From Amycolatopsis acidiphila (GTDB lineage: Bacteria; Actinomycetota; Actinomycetes; Mycobacteriales; Pseudonocardiaceae), in NCBI RefSeq assembly GCF_021391495.1, contig NZ_CP090063.1, forward strand, positions 6,820,001 through 6,884,000: DNA of 64,000 bases. The letters are read 5' to 3'. The position numbers were made by a program, and so were the translations under genes. Within the stretch, counting starts at the first letter, position 1; each line of letters opens with the position of its first letter. Below the pieces are notes generated by a model. The model ran no database searches. It was not told the origin of the DNA and saw only the letters and a program-made list of their open reading frames with translations. Shown here piece after piece: positions 13,063 to 16,445 of this stretch.

Positions 13063-14958
13063 TCACTTGAGGTTCTTGGCCCGCGAGCGCTCCTTGGCAC
13101 GCTGGCTGATGTCGAGCGTCACCTTGCGGATCCGGACGACCTCCGGCGCGACCTCGACGCACTCGTCGACGGCGCAGAACTCCAGCGCCTCCTCCAGGCC
13201 CATCTTGCGCGGGCGGGCCAGCGTCTCCATCACGTCGGCGGAGGACTGACGCATGTTGGTCAGCTTCTTCTCCTTGGTGATGTTGATGTCGAGGTCCTCG
13301 GCCCGCGGGTTCTCGCCGACGACCATGCCCTCGTACACGTCCGCGCCCGGCTCGACGAAGAACGTGCCACGGTCGGCGAGCTGGATCATCGCGTACGCGG
13401 TGACCGGGCCGGTGCGGTCCGCGACCAGCGAACCGCTGTGCCGGGTGCGGATCTCGCCCGCCCACGGGAAGTAGCCCTCGAACACGTGGTTGGCGATGCC
13501 CGTGCCGCGGGTCTCGGTGAGGAAGTCGGTGCGGAACCCGATCAGGCCCCGCGCGGGCAGCACGTACTCCAGCCGGATCCGGCCGGTGCCGTTGCCGCCC
13601 ATGTGCTCCATCCTGCCCTTGCGCGCAGCCATCAGCTGCGTGATCGAGCCCAGGTGCTCCTCGGGCGAGTCGATCGTCAGCCGCTCGAACGGCTCGTGCA
13701 GCTTGCCGTCGATGGTGCGGGTGACCACCTGCGGCTTGCCGACCGTCAGCTCGAAGCCCTCACGGCGCATCTGCTCGACGAGGATGGCCAGCGCCAGCTC
13801 GCCACGGCCCTGCACCTCCCAGGTGTCCGGCCGCTCGGTGGGCAGCACCTTGATGCTCACGTTGCCGACCAGCTCCTGGTCCAGCCGGGCCTTGACCAGG
13901 CGCGCGGTGACCTTGTCGCCGCCGTTGCGGCCCGCCAGCGGCGAGGTGTTCACGCCGATGGTCATCGAGATCGCGGGCTCGTCGACCGTGATGCGCGGCA
14001 GCGCCTCGGGGTTCTCCACGTCGGCGAGGGTGTCGCCGATGGTGATCTCCGGGATGCCGGCGATGGCGACGAGTTCGCCGGCCGAGGCCTCCTGCGCGGG
14101 CACGCGCTCGAGCGCCTCGGTGACGAGCAGCTCCGAGATGCGCACGTTCTGCGTCGAGCCGTCCGCGCGCAGCCACGCGACGGTCTGGCCCTTGCGCAGC
14201 TTGCCCGAGTGGATGCGGATGAGCGCGATCCGGCCGAGGAAGTTGGACGCGTCGAGGTTGGTCACCAGTGCGCGCAGCGGGCCGTCGACGTCGGCGGCGG
14301 GCGGCGGCACGTGCCGCAGCAGGGTCTCGAACAGCGGGTCGAGGTTCTCGCTGGCCGGCTGCGCACCGTCGGCGGGACGCTCGGTGCTCGCGCGGCCGGC
14401 GCGGGCCGAGGCGTAGACGACCGGCAGGTCGAGCACCGCGTCGAGGTCGGCGTCCTCGATGTCGCCCGCGAGGTCGAGCAGCAGGTCGTGGGTCTCCTCG
14501 ACGACCTCGGCGATCCGGGCGTCGGGGCGGTCCACCTTGTTGACCACGAGCACGACCGGCAGGCCGGCCTCGAGCGTCTTGCGCAGCACGAAGCGGGTCT
14601 GCGGCAGCGGGCCCTCGCTGGCGTCGACCAGGAGCACGACGCCGTCGACCATCGCCAGGCCCCGCTCGACCTCGCCACCGAAGTCGGCGTGGCCGGGGGT
14701 GTCGATCACGTTGATCGTGACCGGGCCGTCCGGGGTCTGCCGGTGGATGGCCGTGTTCTTGGCGAGGATGGTGATGCCTTTTTCGCGCTCGAGCTCACCG
14801 GAGTCCATCACCCGGTCCACCAGCTCCGCGCGTTCGGTGAACGCCCCCGACTGACGGAGCATGGCGTCGACCAGGGTTGTCTTGCCGTGGTCGACGTGTG
14901 CCACGATGGCGACGTTGCGCAGGTCCGTGCGGACCTTCTCGGCAGTTGCTGCGGGCAC
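13063..14958 (-). CDS. typA: Ribosome-associated GTPase TypA/BipA
   Basis: TypA is a translational GTPase related to EF-G that binds ribosomes under stress and aids ribosome assembly. G1 is AHVDHGKTT near the N-terminus, followed by [28 protein letters not shown] and NKVDRPDAR. The EF-G-like C-terminal domains end with the TypA-specific lysine-rich tail. From the GTG at 14958 it has 631 residues, close to the family length; it has AGGAG upstream. A start 20 codons earlier would add unconserved sequence. It is followed by lpqW, as in mycobacteria. Confidence 0.94.
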
Positions 14959-15079
14959 GCGAAGGCTCCTGAGTACTAAGAGGTCTGAGGGAGAACACCC
15001 GAGCCGGCTCTGGCCCACGGGCAGTCTCCCCCAGGATACCCTTTACCTCTTTGTGACCAGCAACACGTCACCTCAGCAC

Positions 15080-15098
15080 TTAGCTTCGCCTAACCTAA
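15080..15098. promoter_or_regulatory. IdeR/DtxR-type iron box
   Basis: The sequence TTAGCTTCGCCTAACCTAA matches the consensus iron box TTAGGTTAGSCTAACCTAA at 17 of 19 positions. It ends four bases before the ATG of the 49-residue Cys-rich gene. A bound iron-loaded repressor would be expected to block its expression. Confidence 0.7.
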
Positions 15099-15102
15099 CC
15101 CC

Positions 15103-15252
15103 ATGGGCAAGGACAGCTCGGACCCCCGGGCAGTGGTGCGAAAGCTCATGAAGGCCGGCAAGGTGAAGAAGAAGTGCTGCCGGTCCAAGAGCCGCTGCAA
15201 GAAGTGCCCGGTGCTCGCACTGAAGAAGGCGAAGGCCAAGGCAGCCGCCTGA
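15103..15252 (+). CDS. Small basic Cys-rich protein (49 aa) behind an iron box
   Basis: The 49-residue product is strongly basic and carries four cysteines in one cluster, KKKCCRSKSRCKKCP, between Lys/Arg-rich arms. There is no signal peptide or membrane segment. The cluster could bind a metal ion or an Fe-S centre, and the basic arms could bind nucleic acid. The ATG at 15103 has no Shine-Dalgarno sequence, so the mRNA may be leaderless or nearly so. It is divergent from typA, with an IdeR/DtxR-like box directly upstream, so iron limitation would be expected to induce it. I do not recognise a named family. Confidence 0.8.
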   Translation: MGKDSSDPRAVVRKLMKAGKVKKKCCRSKSRCKKCPVLALKKAKAKAAA

Positions 15253-15334: not shown

Positions 15335-15379
15335 ATGCGCACCTTCTCCGGACTGTGGTGGCCGCCCTCGGGCGGCTGA
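15335..15379 (+). CDS. Trp leader peptide of trpS
   Basis: A 14-codon ORF (MRTFSGLWWPPSGG) has two adjacent Trp codons at 15356-15361. These are immediately followed by the first arm of a hairpin. It is the sensing element of the attenuator that follows, and its product has no expected function of its own. Confidence 0.85.
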   Translation: MRTFSGLWWPPSGG

Positions 15380-15434
15380 CCGCTGTGCGCTGACACAGAT
15401 ACCAGGGCCGCCCCGCGTGGGCGGCCTTCCTTGT
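15361..15434 (+). promoter_or_regulatory. Tryptophan attenuator upstream of trpS
   Basis: Four segments alternate. Arm 1 GCCGCCC (15361-15367) pairs with arm 2 GGGCGGC (15370-15376), and arm 3 GGCCGCCC (15406-15413) pairs with arm 4 GGGCGGCC (15419-15426), followed by TTCCTTGT. Arms 2 and 3 are also fully complementary over 7 bp. A ribosome stalled at the tandem Trp codons would mask arm 1, let 2 pair with 3, and so prevent the 3-4 terminator. Confidence 0.85.
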
Positions 15435-15482
15435 GTCCCAAGGTCGTTTCCCGCGGGCGGCACGACGACCAGGGAGACACGG

Positions 15483-16445
15483 ATGAGACTGTCGGGCATC
15501 ACCCCGTCGGGTCACACACAGCTCGGGAACCACCTCGGCGCGGTCGCGCGCTGGGCGGCCGACGGGGGCGCCGAGGACCTGTATTTCATCGCCGACCTGC
15601 ACGCGATGACGACCACGCACAATCCGGCCGGGCTACGTGGCCGGACGAGCGAGATGCTCGCGATCCTGATCGCCGCCGGAATCGCGCCGGAACGGGTTTT
15701 CGTCCAGTCCGATCTCGCGCGGGAACTCGGCGCGCTGACCTGGGTGCTGGAATGCACGTGCAGTTACGGCGAGGCCGCGCGGATGATCCAGTTCAAGGAG
15801 AAGGCGGCCGGGCAGTCCGGCGTGCGGCTGAGCCTGCTGACCTATCCCGTGCTGATGGCCGCGGACATCCTGTTGCAGGGTGCGGCGGAGGTGCCGGTCG
15901 GCGAGGACCAGAGCCAGCACGTCGAGCTGGCCAGGGTGCTCGCACGGCGGTTCAACTCGACCTACGGCGAGGTGTTCACCGTGCCGCGCGCGGTGCTGCC
16001 GCTCACCGGGGCGAGGGTGCGCGACCTGGCGGACCCGACGCGGAAGATGTCGAAGTCCAACCGCGACTCCGCGGGGGTGGTGTTCGTGCTCGACGAGCCC
16101 GACCTGATCCGGCGGAAGATCCGCCGCGCGGTGACCGACGCCCACTCCGCCCCCGCGTACGAGCCCGACGAGCGGCCCGGGGTGTCGAACCTGCTGGAGA
16201 TCCTCGGCGCCTGCACCGGGACCACCCCGCAGGAGGCGGCCGCGGCCCACACGTCCTACGGCGCGCTGAAGGAGGCCGTGGCCAACGCGGTGATCGAGAC
16301 GCTCCGGCCGATCCGCGAGCGCACCCTGGCCCTGCTGGCGGACCCGGCGGAGCTGGAGCGGGTGCGCAAGGCAGGCGGCACCCGCGCCGCCGAGCGTGGC
16401 GAGCACCGGCTCAGCTCGGCGCTGCGGCTGATCGGCGCGGGCTGA
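15483..16445 (+). CDS. trpS: Tryptophanyl-tRNA synthetase
   Basis: This class I synthetase charges tRNA-Trp. The HIGH-like motif appears as TPSGHTQLGNHLGA near residues 7-20 and the KMSKS loop as RKMSKSNRDSAG near 182-193. The Trp-binding region LLTYPVLMAADILLQGA is typical. Its 320 residues are near the usual length. The ATG at 15483 has GGGAGA upstream. A Trp leader peptide and attenuator precede it, so expression should rise when charged tRNA-Trp is scarce. I cannot tell from this window whether the genome has a second trpS. Confidence 0.96.
   Translation: MRLSGITPSGHTQLGNHLGAVARWAADGGAEDLYFIADLHAMTTTHNPAGLRGRTSEMLAILIAAGIAPERVFVQSDLARELGALTWVLECTCSYGEAARMIQFKEKAAGQSGVRLSLLTYPVLMAADILLQGAAEVPVGEDQSQHVELARVLARRFNSTYGEVFTVPRAVLPLTGARVRDLADPTRKMSKSNRDSAGVVFVLDEPDLIRRKIRRAVTDAHSAPAYEPDERPGVSNLLEILGACTGTTPQEAAAAHTSYGALKEAVANAVIETLRPIRERTLALLADPAELERVRKAGGTRAAERGEHRLSSALRLIGAG

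Follow-up and report, generated by a model that had tools for sequence, protein, structure and literature searches.

In Mycobacterium tuberculosis the gene bfd lies divergent to bfrA, is regulated by IdeR and is up-regulated in low iron; its role in iron release is put forward there as speculation (PMC5218490). Deletion of bfd in Pseudomonas aeruginosa leads to the trapping of iron in BfrB (PMC7760384). In Saccharopolyspora erythraea, a member of the Pseudonocardiaceae, 37 putative IdeR sites distributed over 23 clusters have been described, including bacterioferritins and ferredoxins (PMC8464063).

The window analysed here is a stretch of 64,000 nucleotides of the Amycolatopsis acidiphila genome. 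It contains a small gene that is preceded by an iron box, and whose relatives in other actinobacteria often lie beside a gene for ferritin. The features of the locus are listed in Table 1.

Table 1. Position, strand and supporting evidence for the features of the small-gene locus, numbered from the first nucleotide of the window
Feature	Position	Strand	Basis
Small gene, 49 aa, MGKDSSDPRAVVRKLMKAGKVKKKCCRSKSRCKKCPVLALKKAKAKAAA	15103..15252	+	ORF list; 216 relatives
Conserved-core codons CCRSKSRCKKCP (C-C-x5-C-x2-C-P)	15175..15210	+	Alignment of 40 relatives
Iron box (IdeR/DtxR-type operator), TTAGCTTCGCCTAACCTAA	15080..15098		17/19 to TTAGGTWAGSCTWACCTWA; conserved upstream of relatives
Candidate −10 element TAACCT inside the box	15091..15096	+	Sequence; 6 nt before the A of ATG
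Divergent neighbour typA/bipA, alternative GTG start at 15018	13063..14961	-	Pfam GTP_EFTU and BipA_C

The small protein and its family

The small gene had been described from the sequence as encoding a Cys-rich basic protein of 49 amino acids. This is correct; the open reading frame comprises 49 codons, and four cysteine residues are found in KKKCCRSKSRCKKCP. On alignment of 40 relatives C25, C26, R31, C32, C35 and P36 are invariant, and the core of the family can be summarized as KKxCC-x4-RC-x2-CP. Several diverged members retain the four cysteines but not the arginine. There are exactly four cysteines in 93 of 99 distinct cores, the median net charge over the family members is +14, and the median length is 54.5 residues when the count starts ten residues ahead of the core and runs to the C-terminus.

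A protein search using the window protein returned 216 relatives at E ≤ 1, and the A2 profile gave 3309 proteins at E ≤ 0.01 among 8000 candidates scored. Within the order, 82 of the 199 genomes carry a member of the family, and they cover 24 of the 52 genera. It is found in 57 of 393 genomes of the class (using the A4 profile), and in 32 of 396 genomes of the phylum. Judged by these matches the family is widespread in actinobacteria.

Membership of a described family was considered and rejected, as Pfam, NCBIfam and the PDB gave nothing convincing. The window protein has no match in Pfam or NCBIfam at E ≤ 10, nor with PDB chains at the same threshold, and among 43 relatives obtained with the A4 profile the best E values are 0.0091 (Pfam) and 0.013 (NCBIfam). 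The protein had been called undescribed, and for the databases searched this holds: neither it nor its relatives match a Pfam or NCBIfam entry at an E value below 0.009, and the PDB has no match. A search of the open-licence full text in PMC found no account of the small protein. The family is called ‘hypothetical’ in databases, and some sources label relatives as ‘adenine-specific DNA glycosylase’. The present comparison would place a family bearing such names in the iron regulon of Amycolatopsis and many other actinobacteria.

The iron box and a candidate leaderless promoter

Scored against TTAGGTWAGSCTWACCTWA, which we take to be the degenerate IdeR/DtxR consensus, the box TTAGCTTCGCCTAACCTAA matches at 17 of 19 positions, as had been claimed, and the match is located at 15080–15098. 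Counted by eye, it agrees with the strict palindrome TTAGGTTAGGCTAACCTAA at 16 of 19 positions. The box was also said to end four nucleotides before the start codon of a gene that lacks a Shine–Dalgarno sequence. The nucleotides CCCC indeed separate position 15098 from the ATG at 15103, and no Shine–Dalgarno sequence is seen before this ATG.

The hexamer TAACCT would fit as the −10 element of a leaderless promoter, and a leaderless start would account for the missing Shine–Dalgarno sequence. Scans of the locus for the sigma-70 consensus and for terminators found nothing, and an Rfam search for an RNA element at the locus gave a single match that was far below the gathering score.

Box sites across the genome

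Scanning the whole genome (8.18 Mb) gave 14 box sites with no more than three mismatches and five with no more than two, and the box of the window is one of these five. A control scan of the same genome with the pattern written backwards gave one forward match and no reverse match. Eight of the 13 other sites have a neighbour that was checked with Pfam. These neighbours are ferritin (shared by two sites), FTR1, VIT1, a PF01497 binding protein (shared by a further two), an AMP-binding enzyme and a DUF2470 protein. The neighbours of sites 552337, 7257181, 7415971, 5811124 and 7954890 were judged by eye only. The remaining four of the best five include a site at ferritin and another beside an NRPS-like frame (by eye), while 7257181 and 7415971 have no iron-gene-like neighbour (also by eye), and this counts against the proposal made below.

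Outside the window, the ferritin gene of this genome is preceded by two tandem iron-box-like sites (G000:C1:117744–117796). This arrangement would suit activation by iron-loaded IdeR.

Conservation of the box upstream of relatives

The box was scored at 134 family loci, each represented by its highest score within the 160 nt that precede the CC codons. This set excludes L027 and L028 (weak matches inside long ORFs, with no motif), G157 (a 16-residue match) and a second stretch in L256, and the named loci (80 kept of 116) are outside these counts. The strict Cys pattern missed ten of the 134 loci, which were re-added for the box counts; the counts of gene context given below (37/78 and 42/124) and the spacing count of 29/80 are based upon the 124 strict-motif loci.

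A score of at least 14/19 is reached at 74 of the 134 loci. The reversed consensus, applied to the same windows, reaches it at none of the 134, and upstream of other ORFs it is reached in one of 365 cases. With the threshold at 13/19 or above the number rises to 89 of 134, and the two controls to five and two respectively. One or more loci with a box of at least 14 occur in 30 of the 48 genera, and in 13 of the 17 families. In an earlier, overlapping set of loci a box of at least 15 was present in 44 of 94, against none of 4198 windows of the same DNA; a further count for this set is 54 of 94 against two of 4198 windows. Hexamer enrichment was also analysed without any consensus, on 45 loci that each stand for a different genus. 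The four hexamers ranked highest are CCTAAC, ACCTAA, CTAACC and GCCTAA, which are half-sites of the iron box. A box arising by chance was considered, and is rejected on the controls of the genome scan, the conservation at relatives and the hexamer test.

The position of the box relative to the start of the gene was compared for 80 loci with a score of at least 13. Twenty-nine of these have a gap of exactly 4 nt, 19 of them belonging to family f91 (presumably Geodermatophilaceae), and in 46 of the 80 the gap falls between −6 and +5 nt.

Conservation of the box upstream of orthologues, the point on which the original prediction depended, was examined, and the prediction survived. The conservation stands for the 74 loci noted above. 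It does not extend to Mycobacterium (g3), in which there is no box and the best score is 11 (13 loci), nor to genera g6, g7 and g247 (eight loci), from which the box is absent. Overall 60 of the 134 loci score below 14/19, and among 77 named motif-bearing loci, mostly from Mycobacterium, only four reach a score of 13 or more. In Mycobacterium loci such as L007, L009 and L012 the gene is kept beside typA with the box absent, and 12 such genomes also have Bfr.

Regulation of the small gene is well supported by comparison, and its control by IdeR/DtxR is very probable. IdeR itself is the presumed binder of the box, and the gene would be induced on iron starvation.

Neighbouring genes

The divergent neighbour in the window is typA. 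Over the 124 strict-motif loci, typA takes this position in 45 of 46 loci from f1 and f2, families that we take to be Pseudonocardiaceae and Mycobacteriaceae respectively, and in none of the 78 others. In 37 of those 78 the small gene is adjoined by a gene for ferritin, in 15 genera and seven families. Thirty-two of the ferritin genes are divergent, four are downstream on the same strand and one is convergent. Pfam assigned PF00210 to each of the three neighbouring ferritins checked in this way; the adjoining ferritins resemble the genome's own non-Bfr ferritin. Adjacency is complete in f91 (19 of 19 loci), while in f105 (16 loci) and f83 (eight loci) the gene is present with an adjacent ferritin in none. 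Neither typA nor ferritin is a neighbour in 42 of the 124 loci. A box of at least 14 is found in 28 of 37 loci with ferritin, 24 of 45 with typA and 15 of the 42 that adjoin neither.

The genome from which the window comes has its ferritin gene far from the small gene, at ∼0.117 Mb compared with 6.835 Mb. The adjacency to ferritin is a new point that is not visible from the sequence of the window alone, and the link to ferritin is the best clue to function. One f91 genome (G570) has two copies of the small gene (L155 and L165), each with its own box (15/19) and a divergent ferritin.

On the downstream side of the small gene is a gene that by eye reads like a tryptophanyl-tRNA synthetase (15483–16445). 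It is preceded by a predicted short ORF, MRTFSGLWWPPSGG, in which two Trp codons stand side by side (15335–15379), and by a 10-bp hairpin (15404–15428) that follows this ORF. All 21 loci scanned, two of them repeats of others, have a leader ORF with the two Trp codons ahead of the synthetase-like gene, and the fold z-score of 15335–15482 is −2.64. The leader ORF and hairpin look like a tryptophan attenuator.

Co-occurrence with ferritin and exchange with haem bacterioferritin

Ferritins were called with a single query, the genome's own ferritin, at E ≤ 1e-20, so that divergent ferritins may be missed; ‘non-Bfr’ signifies that the genome from which the query was taken has no TIGR00754 match. 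Among the 199 genomes of the order, and uncorrected for relatedness, non-Bfr ferritin is present in 70 of 82 with the small gene and in 16 of 117 without it. Twelve of the 82 therefore have the gene with no ferritin at E ≤ 1e-20, and 16 genomes have ferritin without the gene. Counted by genus, ferritin occurs in 21 of 24 with the small gene, against three of 28 without; 21 genera have both, three the gene only, three ferritin only and 25 neither.

Haem Bfr (TIGR00754) was used as a control, and has the opposite distribution, being present in 14 of the 82 genomes with the small gene and 53 of the 117 without. The small gene does not lie beside haem bacterioferritin; where it has a ferritin neighbour, this resembles the non-Bfr type. 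In f91 all 18 genomes with the small gene have non-Bfr ferritin, and 12 genomes with Bfr all lack both the small gene and non-Bfr ferritin. Genus g268 includes a genome with ferritin and the gene, and one in which Bfr takes their place. In genus g249 the gene is missing from the three genomes that carry Bfr, which do have ferritin, and Bfr is missing from four that carry the gene. The association of gene and ferritin is weak within f2 and f83.

A proposed role, and other explanations

The following sequence of events is proposed. When iron is plentiful, Fe-IdeR/DtxR would occupy the box over the presumed −10 element of the leaderless promoter, and the gene would be off. As iron falls the repression would be lifted, and the leaderless mRNA translated into the basic, four-cysteine protein. 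The CCx5CxxC motif would hold one iron or iron-sulfur centre, and the protein would dock on the shell of the non-Bfr ferritin. There it could help to reduce the stored iron or carry it out of the ferritin. The small protein would be an unrelated counterpart of Bfd, serving the non-Bfr ferritin.

The family, the box and its position, the adjacency to ferritin and the co-occurrence are seen directly on comparison of the genomes, and from this base we infer the metal centre, the contact with ferritin and the release of iron. A function of the small protein that is linked to ferritin is somewhat favoured. The account in full, that of an IdeR-repressed small protein made on starvation and acting on ferritin like Bfd, is evenly balanced, and the specific redox role in the manner of Bfd is more tentative. 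It is equally tentative that many actinobacteria with a non-Bfr ferritin have a hitherto unrecognised class of IdeR-derepressed iron-release proteins, basic, of ∼50–65 aa and with a single CCx5CxxCP metal centre, that would dock on ferritin to mobilise its iron and replace the Bfr–Bfd pair in whole clades.

There are further difficulties. A ferritin that is haem-free offers no obvious electron relay, which counts against the redox model. Where the gene and ferritin may share an operon, repression by iron would also affect ferritin, barring a second promoter; the bfd–bfr gene order in the sampled Bfr loci (see below) poses the same puzzle. Lastly, a net charge of ∼+14 also fits with the binding of nucleic acid, and this counts against the ferritin proposal.

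The main rival is indeed a nucleic-acid binder of the FbpB sort; FbpB of Bacillus subtilis is reportedly proposed to work with the sRNA FsrA. The small basic protein made in starvation would bind RNA or DNA and shut down iron-rich enzymes so as to spare iron, with the Cys motif either sensing iron or holding the fold. The high charge and short length are as expected for such a regulator, and three of the four cysteines in the DNA-contacting cluster loop of this genome's MutY and EndoIII are spaced in the same way as those of the small protein. Two of the 43 members each have weak winged-helix matches (best E 0.041 for TrmB and 0.051 for MarR), but these helix-turn-helix matches are no better than those with unrelated families, for example Spb1_C (0.0091). 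Moreover the adjacency to ferritin in three arrangements and the exchange with Bfr are left unexplained, and iron sparing is an unlikely function.

A thiol metal buffer or zinc-knuckle protein, which would need no specific partner and would hold cytosolic Fe2+ or Zn2+ when the cell is under iron stress, is less probable still. The constancy of four cysteines in the distinct cores would suit this, but only one site fits in each protein and the link to ferritin is again unexplained.

The presence of divergent typA in almost every f1 and f2 locus might suggest that the small gene belongs with typA (BipA), and that iron tunes the function of the ribosome. A neighbour common to two related families may however be plain synteny. 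The partnership is set aside because no locus outside f1 and f2 has typA, while many of those loci keep the box, and it is very improbable. Least probable of all is that typA or ferritin, as the divergent gene, is the true target of the box with the small ORF as a passenger, for although a single box sits between both genes in the divergent-ferritin loci, it lies within ∼5 nt of the start of the small gene in 46 of 80 loci and is still present at ≥14/19 in 15 of the 42 with neither neighbour.

Comparison with known systems

The box at this locus is a 19-bp element of the same kind as those of the S. erythraea IdeR regulon. The part of that text examined names no such protein, and its list of sites may already contain this one (PMC8464063).

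The C-x6-C-x2-C-P spacing of the core is like that of the [4Fe-4S] loop of MutY and EndoIII; the genome's own MutY has CTARSPKCADCPLYEAC and its EndoIII CHARKPACGACPLAKDC, to be compared with CCRSKSRCKKCP here. The complete loop is C-x6-C-x2-C-x5-C, and its fourth cysteine is missing in 99 of 99 distinct cores. The small protein differs further in having vicinal cysteines, and its ORF leaves no room for a glycosylase domain. The loop-like Cys spacing hints at a metal or iron-sulfur site.

FbpA, FbpB and FbpC of B. subtilis are small, basic proteins regulated by Fur. Compared by description only, the present protein is similar in being small, basic and putatively under the repression of an iron regulator. 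We know of no Cys core of the CCx5CxxC sort in these three proteins.

Returning to the proposed counterpart of Bfd, 20 Bfr loci were hand-picked from a total of 71. An ORF with the Bfd motif lies within 900 nt of bfr in 18 of the 20 sampled loci, in 17 of them upstream on the bfr strand. A site of at least 13/19 is found in the 600 nt before bfr in 19 of the 20, a count made with no control windows. The small gene and bfd each encode a small Cys protein, with an iron-box-like site upstream and an adjacent iron-storage gene that is divergent or has the smaller gene upstream on the same strand. The proteins themselves are different. The small protein has CCx5CxxC whereas Bfd has CxC-x∼32-CxxC with [2Fe-2S], and the small protein is strongly basic, unlike Bfd. 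The Fer2_BFD domain gave no match with the window protein, nor is it among the families matched by the 43 A4 members. The partner is also different, as the small gene goes with non-Bfr ferritin and tends to exclude haem Bfr. In f91 genomes without the small gene, certain Bfd-like proteins (L280–L283 and L285) have an extra C-terminal CxxCPV or CxxCPM tail, e.g. VCKHCPVRAGR, that resembles the RCKRCPV end of the core of the small family.

Given the shared neighbourhood and the iron-box-like site, the small gene resembles bfd in gene order and in its switch, with the protein and the ferritin differing. We know of no accepted release partner like Bfd for the haem-free ferritins of bacteria, and a conserved gene with an iron box that lies beside ferritin in several families, and in some clades changes places with Bfr, offers a concrete candidate for such a partner.
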